DNA from: Pleurocapsa sp. PCC 7319
Lineage (GTDB): Bacteria; Cyanobacteriota; Cyanobacteriia; Cyanobacteriales; Xenococcaceae
Reading direction: 5' to 3'
Length of the DNA: 64,000 nucleotides
Assembly: GCF_000332195.1 (NCBI RefSeq)
Contig: NZ_KB235922.1
Location: 5,119,322-5,183,321, forward strand
In this document: one piece after another, positions 612 through 19,085 of the stretch
How the letters are laid out: each line of letters opens with the position of its first letter
Numbering within the stretch: position 1 is the first letter of the stretch
Program-made: the position numbers and the translations under genes
The notes under the pieces: generated by a model
What the model saw: only the letters and a program-made list of their open reading frames with translations
The model's database searches: none
What the model was told of the DNA's origin: nothing

Positions 612-1460
612 GTGGAATTAAAACAAATTTTTAAAGCAAATAATCCGGTAATTGGTGTGGTTCATTTATCTCCTTTGCCTACTTCTCCTCGTTGGAAAGG
701 TAAGCTTCAAGAGGTGATTGCTAGAGCCGAACAAGAAGCAACTGCACTTTCAGCAGGTGGAGTTGACGGCATTATTATTGAAAACTTTTTTGATGCTCCT
801 TTTTCTAAAGAGTGTGTCGATCCAGCGGTGGTCAGTGCCATGACCCTGATCGTCGATCGCTTAAAAGGTATGGTCATGCTGCCGATGGGGATCAATGTTT
901 TGCGTAACGATGCCCGAAGTGCTATGGCGATCGCTAGCTGTACCGACATTCAGTTTATTCGTGTAAATGTCTTAACGGGAGTTATGGCAACAGACCAGGG
1001 CATAATTGAAGGAAAAGCCCACGAATTACTCAGATACCGTCGGGAATTAGGGTCAGAAGTCGCTATTTTGGCAGATGTCTTAGTCAAACATGCCCGTCCT
1101 TTGGGTACACCTAATTTAACTACTGCTGTGCAGGACACTATTCAACGGGGATTAGCAGATGGAGTAATTCTCTCGGGATGGGCAACGGGTAGTCCTCCTA
1201 CCCAAGAAGATTTGGAATTGGCATCTGCCGCCGCTGCTGATACTCCTGTATTTATTGGTAGTGGGGCTAATTGGGAGAATATCCCCCAACTGATGCAAGC
1301 AGCAGATGGCGTAATTGTTTCTAGCTCTCTCAAACGCTATGGCAAAATCAGTGAAACTATTGATCCCATTCGAGTGTCTCAATTTGTGGAAGCCGCAAAA
1401 TCAACTGTGAAACAGGAAAATAAAGTAAAGTCAAATACCTCGATTAAACAATTCAATTAG
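612..1460 (+). CDS. btpA: BtpA family photosystem I biogenesis protein
   Basis: The protein belongs to the BtpA/SgcQ family of TIM-barrel-like proteins. In cyanobacteria BtpA is a thylakoid-associated factor needed for stable accumulation of photosystem I reaction-centre proteins. The recognisable features are the N-terminal PVIGVVHLSPLPTSPRW stretch and the later GSGAN and DGVIVSSSLK segments, which are phosphate-binding-like loops at the barrel's C-terminal end. The open frame extends up to a TTG at 567, but family members begin just before the PVIG segment, so I place the start at GTG 612 (about 282 residues). No good ribosome binding site sits directly before 612; the nearest strong one (571-577) serves an out-of-frame ATG at 589. 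The gene appears monocistronic. Family assignment is firm, the start is not. Confidence 0.9.
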   Translation: MELKQIFKANNPVIGVVHLSPLPTSPRWKGKLQEVIARAEQEATALSAGGVDGIIIENFFDAPFSKECVDPAVVSAMTLIVDRLKGMVMLPMGINVLRNDARSAMAIASCTDIQFIRVNVLTGVMATDQGIIEGKAHELLRYRRELGSEVAILADVLVKHARPLGTPNLTTAVQDTIQRGLADGVILSGWATGSPPTQEDLELASAAAADTPVFIGSGANWENIPQLMQAADGVIVSSSLKRYGKISETIDPIRVSQFVEAAKSTVKQENKVKSNTSIKQFN

Positions 1461-1629
1461 TTCAACACAAGCTGAATTTCAACACAAGCTATAATTTGGA
1501 CAATAAAAAAGCTATTGATTATTAGCCGTCAGTTATTAGTAGTTCAAGAGATAATTTGTCTCCCAGAAGCTAAGAACTAAGAGCTAACAGCTTTTATCTA
1601 ATAATGAACCTATCGATTGATATTTAGTT

Positions 1630-2622
1630 ATGCGCCGCCGACGTTCTTTACCCTGGATTTACCGCTGGTCACGACCGATAATTGGAGCAATAGCAATTGC
1701 GGGAGCAATTCTGACTGCATATTTAACTATCACCAAATTAACTGGAGGCGGTCCCGCTTGCTCTGCTGATGCTGCTGCTGGCTGTGGTGGAGTATTAGAT
1801 AGTGCTTATGCCACAGTTTTTGGTTTGCCCTTAAGCTTATTTGGTTGTATGGCCTATATCAGTATGGCGGTTTTTGCCCTGGTTCCCCTGGCAATTGGTG
1901 CTGATGGCAAAAAGGATCTGAAAAAACAGCTCGAAAACCTTACTTGGTGGCTTTTGCTGGCTGGCAGTATTGCCATGACAGTCTTTAGCGGCTATTTGAT
2001 GTATGTCTTAGCTACAGAACTTAAGGCAGTATGTCCCTACTGTATTGGCTCAGCATTATTTTCTCTCAGCTTATTGGTACTGACGATTACTGGTAGAGAT
2101 TGGGAAGATTTAGGACAAATATTGTTTACCGGAGTTATCGTAGCGCTGCTTACCATAGTAGTGACTTTAGGTATTTACTCTAACGTCAATTCTTCGATTG
2201 CCCAAGCTAATGGATCCCAGGAAGAAGTAGTGGATGCCGATGGTTTAATTGCTATTCCAGAACCAGTAGGAGATCCGAAACCGCCTATCGGCTGGGAAAT
2301 TAACACTACATCTGAAGAAGCAGAGATCGCTTTGGCAAAACATTTAACTGCCACTGGAGCGAAAAAATATGGTGCGTTTTGGTGTCCTCACTGCTATGAA
2401 CAGAAGCAGTTGTTTGGGAAAGATGCATTTAGTGAAATTAATTATATTGAATGCGACAATCAGGGCAAAAATCCTCAAAGAGATGTTTGTATGGCAGCAG
2501 GAATCCAATCTTTCCCTACTTGGGAAATTGATGGTCAGTTTTACCCAGGAACAAAAACTCTAGCCGAATTAGCTGAATTATCTAAATATCAGGGCGACAA
2601 AAATTTTAAATATAAATTGTAG
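1630..2622 (+). CDS. VKOR-thioredoxin fusion (disulfide-forming membrane protein)
   Basis: This is a vitamin K epoxide reductase homologue fused to a thioredoxin-like domain, the cyanobacterial and plastid (LTO1-like) arrangement. It oxidises thiols in lumenal or periplasmic proteins and passes the electrons to quinone. The sequence shows a basic N-terminus, several membrane segments, a loop cysteine pair at about residues 44 and 52, and the quinone-proximal CPYC motif at 135-138. A soluble domain follows with WCPHC (cysteines 252 and 255), the CXXC of the thioredoxin-like domain. Length (330 residues) is normal for this fusion. ATG 1630 is followed at once by an MRRRRS basic stretch, fitting positive-inside orientation. 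It stands alone between btpA and the barrel protein; co-regulation with photosystem assembly is possible but inferred only. Confidence 0.93.
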   Translation: MRRRRSLPWIYRWSRPIIGAIAIAGAILTAYLTITKLTGGGPACSADAAAGCGGVLDSAYATVFGLPLSLFGCMAYISMAVFALVPLAIGADGKKDLKKQLENLTWWLLLAGSIAMTVFSGYLMYVLATELKAVCPYCIGSALFSLSLLVLTITGRDWEDLGQILFTGVIVALLTIVVTLGIYSNVNSSIAQANGSQEEVVDADGLIAIPEPVGDPKPPIGWEINTTSEEAEIALAKHLTATGAKKYGAFWCPHCYEQKQLFGKDAFSEINYIECDNQGKNPQRDVCMAAGIQSFPTWEIDGQFYPGTKTLAELAELSKYQGDKNFKYKL

Positions 2623-2820
2623 TTTTATCTTTCTCCTCATCACCGTAATTTCTACTTCTGATCTTTGATTTATACAAGATTTAAACCAGCAAGCTGCTAG
2701 AATCTACTTCGATATAGTTGAAATTAAAGTCGACAGAGGCGTTAATTTTATTGGTCTCATTAATCGACTTATTGAAACTAGCAGTGGTTTTCAATTTAGT
2801 GGGGAGTAGAAGGCGATCGC

Positions 2821-4647
2821 ATGAATAAACTGCTATTGGGGCTGGTTAGTTCGATTATTTTTTTCCTATCCAAAACATCTATCGCTCAAGCTCAATCTTC
2901 AGAAAATTTATCCAATCAAGAATCAAATCAGGCTCGAATAACTTTTACTCCTTTGGCAAAACAGTTATTTTCTCAACCAACAGCTCAGCATTTGGGTCAA
3001 GGAGAAGTTTTAATCAATTTAAATACCCGTACCTTCTTCTTCCCCGATCTGGTTGAGAATGGGGTCGATGATAATGACAGTGCCGTCAATTTTAATACTG
3101 GTTTTAGTTGGGGGATCACAGACGATTTGCAACTAACATTGCAATTTCAGCATGTTGACAGTAGTTCCCCGGTTAGACAAGGGGAATTTACTTCAGAACG
3201 AACAGAAGATAATGAAGCAGCGCTGGAACTGAAGCAGCGTCTTTGGAGTAATCAAGCTCAAACCCAATCTTTGAGTGGTGTGCTATCTGCCTCTTGGGGA
3301 ACCAGGGGGTTTATGTTTACCAGAGACCAGGAAGTTACGGAAATCAACAATCGTGATATTTTTGTCTCTCTTGCCGTACCTTTTTCTGCTAGTGTTGGCG
3401 ATCGCTGGGAATTTAACTTATCCCCGACTTTGGCCTTCTTTAAAGATGAGAGTGCCGTTTTTTTTCATCGTCTGCCGGATGATGACGAAAGTTCTTTTGG
3501 CACGGTTCTGGGTTTAGGTGGTGGTGTTTCTTATCGAGTAAATTCCAGATTATCTATTTTTGGTGATGTATTTTTCCCTCTAACAGGTAATAACAGCATT
3601 AATCGAGATTCAGGCGATCCCGATAAGGCGATCGCTTATAATGCAGGGCTACGTTATTTAACCAATCCTCGTCTAGCATTGGATGTTTATGCCTCCAATA
3701 CCTTTGCTAGTTATGCCCCCCTTTCTCTGACTGCCGATCGAGATTTTATGGGTTTGGGAGCTAATTTAGTATTTATGCCTGATGTATTTAAAGCAAATCG
3801 TCGCTATGGAGATAGTTTTCAAGCAACTAAAAACGAGACACAATCTTTAACTACTGACGGTTTGGGCTTTTTTGATGGTGGAACATTACCTAGCGGTAAG
3901 TTTGCCTTTCAACTACAGGGTGGTAGCCAAGGTGTTTTGACTGCACTTCGCTTTGGTTTACTTAAAGATTTTGAAGCGGGAATTTTCCTCGATTATGTAG
4001 CGGGAGAAATAGATGAATCAGAACAAGGTATTAGCGGTAAAGTGAGGTTCTTAAATCAAGAGGAGAATGCCCCAGTAACTCTTAGTGTTGCCGCTACTGC
4101 AAGTCTGACAAACGAACCCTTTATCAATTTCATTGAGAACGACACAAATGCCTTTGAAAGATTTGACTTGAATAAAAGTGTTCCTTTCTTCACTCCCGGA
4201 GGAGATGAACGATTTGAAGGTAAGCTGATAATTTTTACCATTTCTCTGCCTATTCATTATGAAATAAGTAAGGGGACAGCAGTTTGGGCGACACCAATTT
4301 TAGGTTACGTCCAACGCCAAGGATTAGAAATAGGAGGATTTAATCTTGGTACTTCGATTGCTCTTAGCTCAGAGATTAATTTGATCGGCGAAGTGGGAGT
4401 AAACTTTGCCGGAGAGGGAAATGCTTTTATTGATGGACAACTGGAAGATAAAATTCCTTGGTCAATCGGAGCGCGCTGGACACCATTGTCTTTATTGAAT
4501 CGAGAAGCTGCTACTGATAATAGCGACCCTTATTTAGAGTTGTTCTTAACCAACCGTGTTGGGTCTTCTACTTGGCATCAATTAAGAGTAAGAGAAAACA
4601 ACGAAGTCGGCGTTGGGGTTGGTTTATCCATTCCTTTTTCCTTTTGA
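2821..4647 (+). CDS. Secreted outer-membrane beta-barrel protein, function unknown
   Basis: A 608-residue protein with a classical signal peptide (hydrophobic core at about 4-18, then a SIAQAQ-type cleavage region). The mature part is rich in alternating hydrophobic/polar beta strands with many aromatic residues, and the chain ends in SIPFSF; a C-terminal phenylalanine is typical of outer-membrane barrels. Recurrent segments such as LINLNTRTFF, GFSWGITDDLQL and SLSIPF look like strand-turn units, and two halves (residues about 35-330 and 340-608) seem related in style. I cannot name the substrate or family. A GGGGAG-like ribosome binding site lies just before ATG 2821, separated by a HIP1 octamer. 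It is transcribed alone and followed by a hairpin. Confidence 0.7.
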   Translation: MNKLLLGLVSSIIFFLSKTSIAQAQSSENLSNQESNQARITFTPLAKQLFSQPTAQHLGQGEVLINLNTRTFFFPDLVENGVDDNDSAVNFNTGFSWGITDDLQLTLQFQHVDSSSPVRQGEFTSERTEDNEAALELKQRLWSNQAQTQSLSGVLSASWGTRGFMFTRDQEVTEINNRDIFVSLAVPFSASVGDRWEFNLSPTLAFFKDESAVFFHRLPDDDESSFGTVLGLGGGVSYRVNSRLSIFGDVFFPLTGNNSINRDSGDPDKAIAYNAGLRYLTNPRLALDVYASNTFASYAPLSLTADRDFMGLGANLVFMPDVFKANRRYGDSFQATKNETQSLTTDGLGFFDGGTLPSGKFAFQLQGGSQGVLTALRFGLLKDFEAGIFLDYVAGEIDESEQGISGKVRFLNQEENAPVTLSVAATASLTNEPFINFIENDTNAFERFDLNKSVPFFTPGGDERFEGKLIIFTISLPIHYEISKGTAVWATPILGYVQRQGLEIGGFNLGTSIALSSEINLIGEVGVNFAGEGNAFIDGQLEDKIPWSIGARWTPLSLLNREAATDNSDPYLELFLTNRVGSSTWHQLRVRENNEVGVGVGLSIPFSF

Positions 4648-4653
4648 CATTTT

Positions 4654-4680
4654 CCCGTCGCGGGACGCGAGGGTCTTTTC
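4654..4680 (+). terminator. Probable intrinsic terminator of the barrel gene
   Basis: Seven bases after the stop codon, cccgtcgcg and cgcgaggg can pair with one bulged base around a GGA loop, followed by tcttttct. Position and GC-rich stem fit a Rho-independent terminator, though the T tract is interrupted. Confidence 0.5.
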
Positions 4681-4747
4681 TCACAAAAAAATAAACTGAA
4701 AATTAAGAGTTATCTGGTCAGTTGAGTTACTTTCAAGCAACTAGCAA

Positions 4748-5341
4748 CTAGTCAATGTAATGTCCTCTATATTTACGGCGAGGCTTATTTTGTGGACTTG
4801 GTGGTTGCATTTTTGTCCAATCTATTATTTCTTCCTCATACAATTTACCGCGATATTTCTTAATCTCTGTTTTAGTTGGAATTGAATCATGATTGGATGC
4901 TAATTGTTCTTCTTCATACATCTGACCACGATATTTTCTGGTAACTTTTTCAGTAGGAATTGACTGAGAATTTTGTCTTACCGTTTGAGTAGGAATTGGT
5001 TGAAAATCTTTTACTACTGTTTTGGTAGAAATTGATTGAGGGGTCTGCAGTACAGTTTGATCTTTGTTGACCTTAGTATTTGGATTATTATGGCTGGAGG
5101 GTAATTTTGATGTTTCCTCAATCCAAATTGTCAAATTTTCCTGACTTCTTACTACAAAAGTGTTAACATCTAATTCGTTGTATTTCTGACAAATATCTAA
5201 TACTTCTAGAATTTGATTATGTTTAAAGTTATCAACTTTCCTCCAAACTAAGTCATTTAAGGAAAATTCTGAATTAGATTGATCCAAAAATTCTTTAGGA
5301 GTAGAATTCTCGGTGGTAAGCCAAGTATTTTTTCCAGTCAT
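4748..5341 (-). CDS. Hypothetical protein with C-terminal KYRG repeats
   Basis: A 197-residue soluble protein with no signal peptide. The N-terminal 80 residues are mixed helix. The middle holds short degenerate repeats of the form QSIPTxTV, about 12 residues each. The last 60 residues contain three KYRG motifs (KYRGQMYEEE, KYRGKLYEEE, KYRGHYID). The YRG motif recalls the short cyanobacterial DUF4278 element, but similarity is limited to a few residues and I do not claim membership. It faces the preceding gene tail to tail, and the next gene upstream (Uma2) has the same orientation about 200 nt away. Function unknown. Confidence 0.55.
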   Translation of the reverse strand: MTGKNTWLTTENSTPKEFLDQSNSEFSLNDLVWRKVDNFKHNQILEVLDICQKYNELDVNTFVVRSQENLTIWIEETSKLPSSHNNPNTKVNKDQTVLQTPQSISTKTVVKDFQPIPTQTVRQNSQSIPTEKVTRKYRGQMYEEEQLASNHDSIPTKTEIKKYRGKLYEEEIIDWTKMQPPSPQNKPRRKYRGHYID

Positions 5342-5478
5342 AGCATGAGTTAGAACTTTTTTTTGATGTCCTCCTAGTATAAAACTCTCTAGTAAGATAT
5401 CTTTGTTTGTAAAATATTTTGACTATTAACATTTTTAAACGGCTGTGTTGCAGATCTTGATTATGATAATTAGATGAC

Positions 5479-5521
5479 AGCGATCGCTTTATCAGATCAT
5501 GGAGTGATGTATGGGGCGATC
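5479..5521 (+). pseudogene. Short diverged copy of a dnaE PHP-domain segment
   Basis: These 43 bases match dnaE positions 6390-6432 at 40 of 43 places. Translated they give AIALSDHGVMYGAI against AIALTDHGVMYGAI in DnaE. No longer frame is open and the similarity stops at both edges. It looks like a leftover of a duplicated or imported dnaE 5' end, lying between the Uma2 stop and the KYRG gene. Confidence 0.6.
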
Positions 5522-5538
5522 AACAAAAGAAAAAGTAT

Positions 5539-6120
5539 CTAAAAAATCTCACTTAAATTTAAAATAAACCCAGGTAATACCTTTTCTCCTGATAAAGTCT
5601 GAGGATTGTTTAAAATTTCTACCTGTTGGTTAAGACGATATATTTCTACTGTTTTTGCTGATGGTTCGATTAACCAGCCAAGTCTTATACCGTTATCTAA
5701 ATACTCCTGCATTTTCGTCTGTAAATCTTCATATCGTTGATTTTTTAAATCGCTTGGACTTACCAGTTCAATTACAAAGTCGGGAGCAAGAGGAGGAAAA
5801 CCTTGTTTTTCTTTCAAAGTAAGATTGTTCCATCTATTTAATTCAATCCAGCTAACGTCTGGACTTCTTCTGGCACCATTAGGCAAGACAAAAATAGTTG
5901 AAGAATCAAACGCCTCACCAAGTTTTGTTTGACGATTCCAATTACCCAAATCCAAATATAAATTAAAGTTCTTTCTCCCTGCTTCACCACCAGTAGGACT
6001 CATGACAATCAATTCTCCATCTTGAGTCAACTCCATTCTTGCTATTTGTTCGACATCAGCTAGCCAATCGAATTGTTCTGGAGTTACTTTGAATCCCTTG
6101 GGTACGGAAATTGCTTCCAT
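5539..6120 (-). CDS. Uma2 family (DUF820) putative restriction-endonuclease-fold protein
   Basis: A 193-residue member of the large cyanobacterial Uma2/DUF820 family, which has the PD-(D/E)XK nuclease fold. Biological roles are mostly unknown; many copies occur per genome. Visible features are the N-terminal substrate-lid segment ending MSPTGGEAG, the RSPDVSWI stretch with the first acidic residue, the core PDFVIELVSPSD, and LQTKMQEYLDNG with the conserved lysine region, followed by GWLIEP. All expected active-site positions appear present. Length is normal for the family. It is divergent from dnaE, with about 170 nt between the two starts. Confidence 0.9.
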   Translation of the reverse strand: MEAISVPKGFKVTPEQFDWLADVEQIARMELTQDGELIVMSPTGGEAGRKNFNLYLDLGNWNRQTKLGEAFDSSTIFVLPNGARRSPDVSWIELNRWNNLTLKEKQGFPPLAPDFVIELVSPSDLKNQRYEDLQTKMQEYLDNGIRLGWLIEPSAKTVEIYRLNQQVEILNNPQTLSGEKVLPGFILNLSEIF

Positions 6121-6288
6121 CGTTGTTACTTGAATCTCTTTTATTTATTTTATATATCCAGTAGATTTTTATAGCGATCGCCCTCCCCTGCCTCCAGTCT
6201 AAATTAAATATTCTTATTCCCTCGCCCCACAACAGTAATAAATCGTTAATAATGGATATTTGCTTACTGATAACTGCTTACTGAAAAT

Positions 6289-9200
6289 ATGTCTTTTGTT
6301 GGCTTACATATTCATAGCGACTATAGCTTGCTCGATGGTGCATCCCAGATACCCCAATTAATTGACCGCGCTTTAGAATTAAATATGCCAGCGATCGCGT
6401 TAACGGATCATGGAGTGATGTATGGGGCGATCGAGCTAATCAAAGTCTGCCGCAATAAGGGTATTAAGCCGATTATTGGCAACGAAATGTATGTGATTAA
6501 TGGCGACATAGAAGTTAACATCACCGAAAAGAAAAAACGCCATCGTAAATATCATCAGGTAGTACTGGCAAAAAATACCCAAGGTTATAAAAACTTAGTT
6601 AAGTTAACGACGATTTCCCACCTGAAAGGTTATCAGGGTAGTGGTATATTTGCTCGTCCCTGTATCAACAAAGAATTACTGGAGAAATATCACGAAGGAT
6701 TGATTGTTACCAGTGCTTGTTTGGGAGGAGAAGTTCCTCAAGCAATTTTAAAAGGAGATTTAGCTCACGCGGAGAAAGTAGCCAAATGGTATCAAAAATT
6801 ATTTGGAGATGATTATTACCTAGAAATACAAGATCACGGGTCGCCAGAAGATCGGATCGTCAATGTGGCAATTGTCAATATTGCCCGTAAATTAGGTATT
6901 AAAATTGTCGCCACTAATGATTCCCACTTTATCTCCTGTTATGACGTGGAAGCCCACGACGCGTTATTGTGCATTCTGACCCAAAAAAGAATTACCGATG
7001 ATAAACGGTTGCGCTATAGCGGTACAGAGTATCTTAAATCTGCCGAGGAGATGAAACTGCTATTTCGAGATCACCTAGAAGATGATGTCATTGAAAGGGC
7101 GATCGCCAATACTGTAGAAGTTGCCGAAAAAGTCCAACCCTACAATATTTTAGGCGAGCCTCGTATTCCTGATTACCCAGTTCCTTTAGGACATACCGCT
7201 GATAGTTATCTAGAAGAAGTTACCCGTAAAGGTTTACTAGAAAGACTCAAGTGTCGTAATCACACTGAAGTTCCTCCTGAGTATATGCAAAGACTGGAAG
7301 TGGAACTCAAGGTGATGCAGGAAAAGGGTTTTTCTACTTATTTTTTAGTGGTTTGGGATTATATTAAATACGCTCGAGACAATAATATCCCCGTGGGACC
7401 TGGTAGGGGATGCGTATTAGGGGATACTCAGGTCATGTTATCTAACGGTAAAGAGATAGCAATTAAAGATATTAAAGTAGGGCAAGAAATAATTACCCAC
7501 CAAGGAAATTTACAAACAATTACCCAAAAGCATGAATATGATTGCGATGAGGAAATTGTTAGATTAAAAGTTAGTAATCTAGATTTAGCTTTAACTCAAG
7601 ATCATAAAATTTGGGCGGTTAAAACTGAAGATTGTGTAGTTAACAGTGCTAAGACGGCTACGGTTTGCAAACCCACTTGCGATCGGTACTGTACACCTAA
7701 ACCTTTTGAAAGTTATTCTTTGCAATGGATTGAAGCAGGAAAACTCAAAGAAAATGATTTTGTGGTTTTTCCGCGAGTATCTTCTGCCGAATCAGAAATT
7801 ACTTTTGACGTATTAGATTTTGTCGAACAAAAAGATTATTTATATTTCGATGATAAATCTATTTGGTATGAAATCGGCACAAATCATTTAGCCACCAAAA
7901 AGATTCCTCGATATATTCAATTCAATGAGGATTTTGCGCGATTGCTAGGTTATTACATCGCAGAAGGGTGGTCGAGACTGGGAGAAAGAGAATGTGCTGT
8001 TGGTTTTGGCTTATCAAAAGCTGAAACTAATTATGCGGAAGAAATTGTCTCTCTAATCGAGCGCATTTTTGGTTTAGAAGCTACAATTATTCCTCATAAA
8101 ACTCGCTATTCTCAACAAGTCTTTTGTTACTCCCGAATTGTCGGTGAGTTTCTAACTGCTTTAGCTGGGAAAGGGGCAAATAACAAACGAATCTGTAACA
8201 AAATTATTACTCACGGTAGATCGGAATTAGTTAAAATTTTAATCGCCTACCTATTTCGTGGTGATGGTCATGCAGGAAATAAAGAAAAAACCCTCTGCAT
8301 TAAATATACAACCACATCTAAAGTACTATCTTCTCAGTTAAGATTATTACTTGCTCGCTTTGGCTATTGGGCATCAATTATTGTCAGAAAGCACAAGCAA
8401 AATATTGATTGGCAGCCAGAATACTCGGTTAAATTATCGGGCAAACAACTATTAGATTGGAATGCCGACTTTCTTGATTTTCCCATCGGTATCAAACAGC
8501 AGAAATTCTATCGCAACGATAGCTTTTTTGTAGACGATCGCTATATCTATCTAAAAATTAGATCGATAACTAAATTCCACCATACAGGGAAAGTGTATGA
8601 CATTACTGTTCCTGAAGATACTTCCTATGTAGGAAATGCGATCGCGATTCACAATTCCGCAGCAGGTTCCTTAGTCGCCTATTGCCTCAAAATTACTAAC
8701 ATCGATCCGATCCATCATGGGTTACTGTTTGAGCGTTTTCTCAATCCTGAACGAAAATCCATGCCTGATGTAGATACGGATTTTTGTCCTGATCGCCGTA
8801 GCGACATGATCAAGTATGTTACCGAAAAATATGGTGAGGCAAATGTCGCCCAGATTATTACCTTTAACCGCATGACTTCCAAGGCGGTACTCAAAGATGT
8901 AGGTCGGGTACTGGGGATTGATTTTGGGGATCAAAATCGCATTGCCAAGATGATTCCTGTGGTGCGTGGCAAACCAACCAAACTCAAGGTAATGATCTCG
9001 GAAGATACTCCCGAGCCTGCTTTCAAGCAAGCATACGAGAAAGAAAGTGTCAAAATTTTTAACGACAATAAAGAAGAAGTTGGCTCAGTTAAAATTCGTA
9101 ACTGGGTTGATATGGCAATACGGATCGAAGGAACCAATAAAACCTTTGGAGTTCATGCTGCGGGAGTGGTAATTTCTTCCAAACCCTTAGACGAAATTGT

Positions 9201-17183: not shown

Positions 17184-17786
17184 ATGATTAAAAACGACAA
17201 GTGGATTATTGAACAAGCCCGACAGGGAATGATTTCTCCTTTTGAAGAAAAATCCATCAGAAAAGCAGTTCTAGGAACAGCTCAAGAAGTCCCCACTATT
17301 AGTTGGGGACTGAGTTCCTATGGTTACGATATTCGTCTGTCACCACACGATTTTCGGATCTTTAGACACATTCCTGGCACAGTGGTAGATCCTAAAAGGT
17401 TTAATCCCCAAAATTTAGAACAAGCAGAGTTACACACAGATGAAGATGGTTCATCTTACTTTATTATTCCTGCCAATAGCTATGGCTTGGGGGCATCCTT
17501 AGAAAGCATCAATATGCCTCCAAATGTCACGGCAATTTGTCTGGGTAAATCTACTTATGCTCGAGTCGGCGTGATTGCCAATACTACACCTTTAGAAGCA
17601 GCTTGGAAAGGAGAAGCAATTACTCTAGAGTTTTCTAATGCCTCTAGTGCTGATGTCAAAATTTATGCTTCAGAAGGAGTGGTACAGTTATTGTTTTTTG
17701 AAGGACAACCCTGTCAAACTACCTATGCCGACCGCGGTGGTAAATATCAAAATCAATCTAATAAAGTTACATTACCTAAAGTTTAG
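17184..17786 (+). CDS. dcd: dCTP deaminase
   Basis: Converts dCTP to dUTP, which a dUTPase then turns into dUMP for thymidylate synthesis. The 200-residue chain has the trimeric dCTP deaminase/dUTPase fold: SSYGYDIRLSPHDFRIF near the start, the LGKSTYARVGVIANTTPLEAAW motif with catalytic Glu and substrate-binding residues, and the EGVVQLLFFEG strand. The ending ADRGGKYQNQSNKVTLPKV is typical. The thyX ATG begins 2 nt after this stop codon, so the two are almost certainly one transcript, placing dUTP supply next to dTMP synthase. Confidence 0.95.
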   Translation: MIKNDKWIIEQARQGMISPFEEKSIRKAVLGTAQEVPTISWGLSSYGYDIRLSPHDFRIFRHIPGTVVDPKRFNPQNLEQAELHTDEDGSSYFIIPANSYGLGASLESINMPPNVTAICLGKSTYARVGVIANTTPLEAAWKGEAITLEFSNASSADVKIYASEGVVQLLFFEGQPCQTTYADRGGKYQNQSNKVTLPKV

Positions 17787-17788
17787 CC

Positions 17789-19085
17789 ATGAATAACCTT
17801 CAATTATCAAAAGACCCCTTAAATGACGGCAAAAGTAGAATTGAGCTAATCGATTCTATGGGTAACGATTTGAGCATAGTTAATGATGCTAGAGCTTCTT
17901 TTGCCAAGAGTTCTGATTCATTAAATGAAAGAGATATTAAATTAATTAATTACTTAATTAAACATCAACATACTAGTCCCTTTCGAGGAGTTGTCTTCAA
18001 GTTCAAAGTAAAAGCCCCCCTCTACATTTGTCGTCAGTGGTAAACCTCAATAGTAATATATTAGTGTCCTATTAAAATTGAAATCAGCAAGTTTTTAATA
18101 TGATTCTAGAGTATCTACCCATAGTTAGAGTTGTTACATCGTCTAATTGCAGAACTTATTCTAAATAGACCTTTGCAAAGGAATGAATTAGTTCATCATA
18201 TTGATGGAGATAAACAAAATAATAACCCTAATAATTTGGTGATTTGCAAAAGTACTCAGGAACATAGAAGAGTACATGATGACCTTGAAAAATTAGCTAT
18301 GATTTTAGTTGCTAATGGAGTTATTCAATTTGATAGGAAAACTAATCGCTATAGAATGCCCCATCTAAAAGAAATTTTAGATGCGTATCGTGTGAATTCA
18401 GGAGAAACCTACGTTCTTGACGTAGAGAATATGGCAATCCTGAGCCAAGCCAATCTTAGATCGGAAGGTGCAACGACTATCCCTCTGGGGAGTAGAGATC
18501 AAGTGATCTCGAAGCGCACGACAGCCTACCTTGAAAAAGAAGGTTGATGATATAGTCTGGTCTTTATGGAAACATAAAGAGAGCTATTGGAAACGAATAG
18601 CTCGTAACATCAACGGGAAACATGTGATTGCCAGTAATCATAACGATGAACAATTAGGCTGGAATGAGAAAAGTTTTCGCTATGTAGCAATTGATGATAG
18701 CAACGAATTTTACATTCCTCCAACCTTTAGAAAACAATCGAAAAACAACAAACAAGCAACTAGAGGTAGCTTAGATCAAGAGTTGAACGACCAGGCGATC
18801 GCCATATATAAAGAACAATGTGAAAATAGCTATCAAGCCTATACTAAGCTCCTAGAGCTAGGAGTCGGAAGAGAACAAGCTAGAGGAGTATTAATTCCTT
18901 CTGTTTATACATCTTGGGTGTGGACAGTTTCTTTGCAAGCATTGCTAAATTTCATCGGCTTGCGTTTAGGAGTTGGGGCGCAAAGTGAAATTGGAGCTTA
19001 TGCCCAGGCAATTGTCGAGTTAATAGAACCAATTGTGCCCATATCTATAGAAGCTTGGTCTAATCATTCAGGAATTAATAATTAA
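17789..19085 (+). CDS. thyX: Flavin-dependent thymidylate synthase, split by a group I intron
   Basis: ThyX methylates dUMP to dTMP using methylene-tetrahydrofolate and FAD. Exon 1 is 17789-18041 and ends PLYICRQW plus the first base of the next codon. Exon 2 is 18616-19085 and starts with the last two bases of Trp85, then KHVIASNHNDEQLGWNEKSF. Joined, they give 723 nt, an intact 240-residue protein with RQWWKH...NEKSFRY, the cyanobacterial version of the ThyX signature. Without splicing, exon 1 stops at TAA 18041-18043 after 84 residues, inside that signature. Substrate and flavin-binding segments (HTSPFRG; exon 2 GVGREQARGVLIP) are intact on either side. The gene is 2 nt from dcd, so the two are probably co-transcribed. 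Confidence 0.92.
18042..18615 (+). ncRNA. Group I self-splicing intron in thyX
   Basis: A 574-nt intron. The exon 1 side ends with T 18041 and the intron ends with G 18615, as group I introns require. The catalytic core is at 18401-18615: GGAGAAACCT (18401), GGCAATCCTGAGCCAAGCC (18433-18451, P4-P6), GGAAGGTGCAACGACTAT (18463-18480), and P7 formed by gactat 18475-18480 with atagtc 18552-18557. P8-like accttgaaaaagaaggt precedes P7, and P9 hairpins lie at 18562-18579 and 18582-18602. The core words closely match the cyanobacterial tRNA-Leu intron type. I could not draw a confident P1/internal guide sequence. The 5' half holds an HNH reading frame. Confidence 0.9.
18131..18547 (+). CDS. Intron-borne HNH endonuclease, possibly truncated
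   Basis: The frame reads LHRLIAELILNRPLQRNELV, then HHIDGDKQNNNPNNLVICKS and TQEHRRVH, a clear HNH nuclease motif with paired His, the Asn-rich turn and the final His. This is the class that makes introns mobile. There is no ATG: the frame opens after a stop at 18122-18124 and could start only at TTG 18131, missing the N-terminal part seen in longer relatives. From about 18400 on it runs through the ribozyme core to TGA 18545-18547, so the last 45 residues are dictated by RNA structure. It is either a minimal enzyme or a decaying one. Confidence 0.75.
   Translation: MLHRLIAELILNRPLQRNELVHHIDGDKQNNNPNNLVICKSTQEHRRVHDDLEKLAMILVANGVIQFDRKTNRYRMPHLKEILDAYRVNSGETYVLDVENMAILSQANLRSEGATTIPLGSRDQVISKRTTAYLEKEG

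Follow-up and report, generated by a model that had tools for sequence, protein, structure and literature searches.

The window analysed here is a stretch of 64,000 nucleotides from Pleurocapsa sp. PCC 7319 (C7:5119322-5183321), whose genome sequence comprises 7.39 Mb in 10 contigs and is 99.99% complete. In this window the dCTP deaminase gene dcd is followed, after a gap of two bases, by thyX, which naive gene calling returns as two fragments with an in-frame stop. An HNH endonuclease frame lies between the two fragments (Table 1). As judged from its sequence, thyX is an otherwise intact gene split by a group I intron. Exon 1 ends in CAG TGG T and exon 2 begins with GG AAA CAT; the intron follows a U (T18041), starts with AAACC and ends with a G. 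The last T of the exon and the first two bases of the intron form a TAA stop at the junction. The predicted spliced junction 18041/18616 reads CAGTGGT-GGAAACAT, and the joined exons give 723 nt, encoding 240 aa plus the stop. This protein aligns without gaps with 11 uninterrupted relatives (76-90% identical) and can be aligned to the solved ThyX structures 6j61 and 1kq4. Its two exon pieces cover positions 1-74 and 82-190 of the 191 positions of the Pfam family Thy1 (PF02511).

The cut falls within the codon of W85, and the joined protein reads RQW-W-KHVIAS around it. KHVIAS, which is common to the uninterrupted relatives, occupies the RHRxxS positions and aligns opposite RHRIAS of 1kq4 (TM0449, a T. 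maritima-type chain), which places the intron in the codon immediately before the RHRxxS-equivalent motif. Liu and Yang reportedly described in 2004 a divergent type of ThyX motif, which may match the KHVIAS type.

An earlier note, made from the letters of this stretch, had read thyX as interrupted by a group I intron at 18042-18615, with exon 1 ending at T18041 and exon 2 resuming at 18616 to restore a 723-nt frame. These borders and the nature of the insert are borne out by the covariance-model match, by homologues at the same site in five relatives, by covariation and by the gapless protein alignment. It had likewise predicted correctly that simple annotation would call two thyX fragments plus an HNH gene, and the HNH frame is real. 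Its placing of the insertion exactly in the ThyX signature motif holds for the vicinity of the motif and not for its inside, the intron lying one codon before KHVIAS by comparison with 1kq4, and its description of exon 1 as ending in PLYICRQW has the border right but omits the restored W85.

Table 1. Coordinates of the genes and intron elements at the thyX locus, in positions of the window
Feature	Position	Strand	Evidence
dcd (dCTP deaminase)	17184..17786	+	ORF; PF22769 DCD, E 6e-25
thyX exon 1, codons 1-84 and first base of codon 85	17789..18041	+	PF02511 positions 1-74, E 1.3e-9; dN/dS
Group I intron, IA2-like by sequence, 574 nt	18042..18615	+	RF00028, 102.5 bits; homologues; covariation
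P1 extension, 5' strand (predicted)	18046..18091	+	duplex -24.1 kcal/mol, z -3.67
HNH endonuclease frame, TTG start, 138 aa	18131..18547	+	PF13392 HNH_3, residues 2-45, E 5.5e-8
P1 extension, 3' strand (predicted)	18308..18356	+	overlaps the HNH frame 3' of the HNH domain
Internal guide sequence UGCC	18357..18360	+	kept in 6 of 6 introns
P2 hairpin	18362..18383	+	9 pairs, 3 changed on both sides
P3, 5' strand (3' strand 18515-18521)	18388..18394	+	7 pairs, 4 changed on both sides
P4-P5	18397..18444	+	RF00028 match; covariation
P6	18445..18469	+	RF00028 match; position
P7, 5' strand (3' strand 18552-18557), guanosine-binding helix	18475..18480	+	2 of 6 pairs changed on both sides (G022)
P7.1 - (A)GUA - P7.2, IA2 signature	18481..18510	+	position; criterion from the available part of PMC3428280; covariation
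P8	18528..18544	+	position; covariation
P9 and P9.1	18563..18603	+	both sides changed in 4 of 6 and 6 of 6 pairs, respectively; a single P9.1 cell unpaired (G010)
thyX exon 2, remainder of codon 85 to stop	18616..19085	+	PF02511 positions 82-190, E 1.4e-29; dN/dS

Fold of the intron and covariation

The Rfam covariance model RF00028, with which the earlier note had suggested checking the intron, matches at 18313-18579 with 102.5 bits (E 2.1e-26), well above its gathering score of 50. The intron and one tRNA are the only matches of an Rfam scan of the whole window. Homologous introns lie at the identical thyX nucleotide in five further genomes of the same family, G010 (419 nt), G013 (439 nt), G017 (484 nt), G020 (421 nt) and G022 (688 nt). 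All six score above the gathering score (102.5 for the window, then 82.2, 82.1, 77.7, 60.7 and 51.5), those of G010 and G022 being missed on longer stretches and recovered on about 1 kb. In each of them the last exon base is T, the last intron base is G, the codon position is the same and a UAA or UAG stop arises at the junction.

For the analysis of covariation the helix strands of the six introns were excised by hand, unequal loops were omitted and the pairs were then counted. Standard pairs make up 99.7% of 336 cells, and in 29 of the 56 pairs both partners are changed, among them two pairs of P7 (gactat/atagtc in the window) that differ simultaneously in G022. None of 500 shuffles reached either the observed pairing or the observed number of changes on both sides. 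When the partners are shifted by one to three columns, pairing falls to 30-45%, a comparison in which the fold is favoured on cells paired, since it was derived from the same six sequences as were counted. The number of further pair types (41, against 37.3 in the shuffles, 30 of 500 being as high) is not distinctive. Such covariation over six homologues makes a chance fold very unlikely. P4-P6, P7 and P9, which the earlier note had recognised, are present, and P7 and P9 contain pairs changed on both sides.

The guide UGCC is predicted to pair with GGU of the exon and with A1 of the intron, with a U-G pair at the splice site. This pairing is short: on the exon side U-G, G-C and G-C end at a U-C mismatch, and the intron contributes a single A-U pair. 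Alternative exon-guide pairings upstream of UGCC, sought by eye, were discarded, since they tracked HNH coding and did not hold in the window; a search by eye for P10 in the window intron gave nothing convincing. In thyX introns of Vibrio phages, described below, GCA stands in front of P2, opposite UGU of the exon, which fits a joint change of guide and exon.

A P1 extension was sought by pairing the first 50 nt of each intron with up to 60 nt before the guide, with 500 shuffles as control. The z values are -3.67 for the window, -2.94 for G010, -1.77 for G017, -2.91 for G020, -3.92 for G022 and -5.89 for G013, and 0, 4, 30, 5, 0 and 0 of the 500 shuffles, respectively, were as low. The extension thus stands out in five of the six introns and is weak in G017. 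In the window it would put the HNH domain in loop L1, while the HNH frame extends through most of the ribozyme core.

The HNH endonuclease frame

The product of the window HNH frame begins at a TTG and is without the N-terminal part of its phage relatives of 218-221 aa. The gene thus looks N-terminally shortened, which makes present mobility doubtful. Among the relatives, G022 has a frame of at least 131 aa and G017 a C-terminal remnant (by eye), and the introns of G010, G020 and G013, with 419-439 nt, are too short to hold an HNH frame besides the core. Across the six introns the endonuclease frames look like the product of decay after invasion. The idea of an HNH subfamily private to thyX was rejected, the methylase HNH of Mycobacterium phage Schatzie being equally similar (39% over 74 aa).

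Distribution and history in the family

Of 388 genomes sampled from the order, 28 match the joined ThyX at E 1e-20. Nineteen are close relatives with an unbroken gene, and hence uninterrupted alleles at the intron site; six are split at this site, one of them the window genome (G000). The others are a distant protein (G254, 41%), a gene split elsewhere (G008) and one cut by a contig end (G005). At least three of the six intron-bearing genomes are probably metagenome-assembled. A scan of named genomes yielded 26 loci, of which 22 are nearly full-length and unbroken, three have this split and one (L080) has the split of G008.

Other elements interrupt thyX genes in these cyanobacteria. The gene of G013 (L040, 1255-7343) is split by three introns, namely a group II intron (1255-3815), the group I intron (3858-4296) and a second group II intron (4605-7343). 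Each of the two group II introns encodes an RT-maturase-HNH protein and has a domain V match that ends at its border; the borders GTGCG..AC and GTGTG..AT restore the thyX frame. In G008, a genus mate of the source organism, a group II intron (L039, about 1432-3870) lies between ThyX K103 and S104. By eye, this is the residue boundary of an intein in the other cyanobacterial ThyX class (..SFDVQ^C...HN|SFRY). In genes of that class (L042-L054), intein-like inserts follow RGHYG, follow RTHRVG or precede SFRY/SNRY, three sites in all, and L042 has two of them in one ThyX. Frames of ~540-560 aa with two Thy1 matches each, apparently tandem-domain ThyX proteins, are found in G047, G048, G055, G056 and G078, and a ThyX match is absent in 51 of 150 relatives.

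Two trees bear on the type and history of the intron. The core tree has 52 rows: the six thyX introns, 38 viral cores, six tRNA-Leu introns drawn from 19, the intron of L004 (apparently in tRNA-Arg) and that of the Vibrio phage pVa5. The viral cores are the distinct usable ones from a pattern scan of 60 contigs; duplicates, incomplete cores and one row of six ids named for exclusion were omitted. The exon tree has 19 rows and includes five of the six intron-bearing genes (G013 was left out). On this exon tree the intron state has to change three times, and well-supported branches force at least two of these changes. The intron of G010 groups with introns of genus g6 (99/98), its ThyX exons with those of genus g1 (88/89). 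These patterns suggest lateral movement of the intron between genera. An old family resident, inherited vertically and lost repeatedly, would sit well with the six introns forming one clade (98/81) and with a clade of the window and G010 introns, which is not rejected (p-AU 0.119). In view of the repeated changes of state and the discordant position of G010, we consider this history somewhat less likely than multiple acquisition or transfer between genera.

Type of the intron

The earlier note had likened the intron to the cyanobacterial tRNA-Leu intron, which in these organisms we take to be of class IC3. There is indeed a likeness in the P4-P6 stretch: the window core has blastn matches in 124 of the 388 genomes of the order, commonly at query 39-122 or 73-97, and 19 of 24 such loci inspected carry a tRNA-Leu-type intron. 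It does not extend to the type. The tRNA-Leu introns are without the P7.1 and P7.2 hairpins, the best core identity of the window intron is 0.52 to tRNA-Leu introns against 0.73 to viral introns, and the tRNA introns separate at 99/99 in the core tree. On these three grounds we reject a close kinship with the tRNA-Leu intron, and the reading that such an intron jumped into thyX is very unlikely.

The window intron has two hairpins joined by AGUA between P7 and P3', and the linkage of P7.1 and P7.2 by G-U-A is given, in the available part of PMC3428280, as a mark of subgroup IA2. We class the intron as phage-type and IA2-like. In the core tree the thyX intron clade is nested among viral-contig introns with the same hairpins; this tree is one without a formally classified IA2 reference, and its viral set, chosen by a pattern from the thyX introns, does not sample phage introns at random. 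The blastn relatives of the intron include Staphylococcus phage stretches annotated Intron_gpI.

The genome has a second group I intron (L004 1501-1784, C7:3475019-3475302). It was considered as a possible tRNA-Leu intron, but by eye it reads as lying in a tRNA-Arg(CCU); ARAGORN called no tRNA at this locus. Also by eye, P7 and P3' are separated by a long hairpin, in contrast to the tRNA-Leu introns.

Selection on thyX

The ThyX family has a single match genome-wide, in two pieces, and neither a second ThyX nor a ThyA nor a thymidine kinase was detected in this 99.99% complete genome (E 0.001). The earlier note had named a second intact thyX or thyA, with this copy decaying, as an observation that would speak against its reading. 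The exons show no sign of decay: dN/dS of the joined exons is 0.041-0.055 against six relatives (dS was saturated in a seventh comparison), and they are under strong purifying selection. Together with the lack of any other detected synthase, these values argue strongly against decay of thyX. A pseudogene cut by a dead mobile element, with thymidylate obtained from another source, would explain the two fragments with an in-frame stop that mechanical annotation gives and the shortened HNH frame. It is nevertheless extremely improbable in view of the intact and selected exons, the absence of another ThyX, ThyA or thymidine kinase among the matches, the core helices, intact and with compensatory changes, and the identical arrangement in five further genomes. 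We reject it on the lack of any detected alternative enzyme and the low dN/dS. The sole detected synthase and its intact, selected exons make it very likely that this cyanobacterium needs splicing of the thyX intron.

That the halves of thyX stay separate and are joined as proteins, as in a split gene or by an intein-like element, has a precedent in the inteins of the other cyanobacterial ThyX class, but is of negligible probability given the junction stop codon in all six introns, HNH_3 as the only Pfam family in the 138-aa frame of the insert and the complete group I fold.

Proposed mechanism and significance

We regard it as about 95% probable that a phage-type group I intron, probably brought by HNH-driven homing, lies in the sole detected thyX gene of this organism and that its splicing restores the ThyX mRNA. 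In the transcript, GGU of the exon would pair with the guide UGCC beside P2, and the HNH domain would sit in the loop of the long P1 extension. The first attack, after U18041, would come from a guanosine bound in P7 and the second, after G18615, from exon 1, to yield the ThyX mRNA. The stop codon at the junction may end translation before ribosomes reach the ribozyme. The intron probably arrived by homing from a phage-type source, and its HNH gene appears to have been shortened at its N-terminus.

Should splicing be confirmed, a bacterium would rely on a phage-type ribozyme for an essential metabolic gene present in single copy. Mechanical gene finding halves such a gene, and a check of the pathway could wrongly suggest that the organism lacks thymidylate synthesis. 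In the six relatives the endonuclease frames range from longer through shortened to nearly erased, a range that fits the life cycle of an intron at different stages, and phage introns at the same site offer a testable route of transfer.

Comparison with known systems

Group I introns with HNH frames also occur in phage thyX genes. The one of Vibrio phage vB_VspP_pVa5 was published in 2017, according to the accessible part of that article (PLoS One, PMC5746245). In this phage and in Vibrio phage 1.097.O (L243 and L253; RF00028 99.2 and 91.7 bits), as in the window, the interrupted gene is thyX and the HNH frame lies ahead of the core; the HNH proteins are homologous to that of the window (35-42% over 79 aa). 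The introns separate TQC from FKH, which corresponds to RQW/KH in the window, and by the terminal-G rule the insertion is one base earlier than in the window (CAGTGT^TTTAAACAC). The sister phages 1.026.O and VBP47, whose thyX is unbroken, have QCFKH at this point. The pVa5 gene belongs to a lytic phage, whereas thyX of the window is chromosomal.

Exactly the phase-1 site of the window is occupied in Alteromonas phage vB_AmaP_AD45-P1 (NC_021532; CAACGGT^TTAAACAC), whose annotation shows thyX as two pieces of a thymidylate synthase flanking HNH and GIY-YIG genes. This intron (L258 1669-2974) scores 105.7 bits with RF00028, its HNH protein is 40% identical to that of the window over 75 aa and, unlike the window intron, it carries two endonuclease genes, the HNH gene beginning 5' of the Rfam core match, the GIY-YIG gene lying 3' of it. 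When the window HNH was compared with a phage collection, the best 9 of 30 records were these Vibrio phages and the Alteromonas phages AD45.

The ribozyme cores of phages and cyanobacteria fall in different clades. The phage thyX cores form one group (94/83, marginally below the level that the tree tool marks with a star), with the AD45 core as a long branch. A common origin of the cyanobacterial and Vibrio phage thyX cores was rejected as a joint clade (p-AU 0.0185). A joint clade with AD45 added (p-AU 0.0027) and one of the cyanobacterial and AD45 cores alone (p-AU 0.0324) were rejected as well, in tests where the AD45 row is long and was excised by a different rule and where the tool warned that long branches meet. 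We tentatively propose, at somewhat less than even odds, that the bases between RQ and KH of ThyX are an intron landing site shared by phages and cyanobacteria. At least two separate lineages of IA2 ribozymes, with related HNH genes ahead of the core, would have entered at the same or the neighbouring nucleotide in marine phage and pleurocapsalean chromosomal thyX, the histories of endonuclease and ribozyme being different. As judged by eye, the insertion points of the G008 group II intron and of the inteins in the other ThyX class follow the RQ/KH site by no more than about 20 codons.

The td intron of phage T4 belongs to subgroup IA2, and its endonuclease I-TevI is of the GIY-YIG type. The comparison with this ThyA case, drawn in the earlier note, is apt as to mechanism, both being self-splicing-type introns in thymidylate synthase genes, but td is a thyA-type gene, unrelated to ThyX, and the thyX intron of pVa5 is the closer precedent. 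The T4 intron is also cited in PMC5746245. Liu and Yang (2004, listed as a reference in PMC4649490) are said to have described a Trichodesmium thyX with an intein and a group II intron, which would likewise be a cyanobacterial ThyX interrupted by self-splicing elements, but of other classes than in the window.

Among cyanobacterial chromosomal genes for DNA precursors, ribonucleotide reductase also has group I introns, in a different gene from ours: the RIR intron of Nostoc punctiforme (Meng et al. 2007, through the part seen of the review PMC12702839) and an nrdE intron (in the available part of PMC3984707). The main text of that review has no occurrence of thyX or thymidylate, and in the open-access literature, searched mostly by titles and abstract starts, we found no paper on a group I intron in a chromosomal cyanobacterial thyX. 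As far as the available part of PMC3428280 describes it, the intron reported there, whose splicing was shown experimentally, resembles that of the window in P7.1 and P7.2 linked by GUA, in its HNH gene and in its setting of cyanobacterium and phage; it differs in lying in a phage DNA polymerase gene, in having no P2 and in a frame that starts in P6a. The thyX intron described here is a new case of an already known phenomenon, the closest precedent seen being the pVa5 intron.
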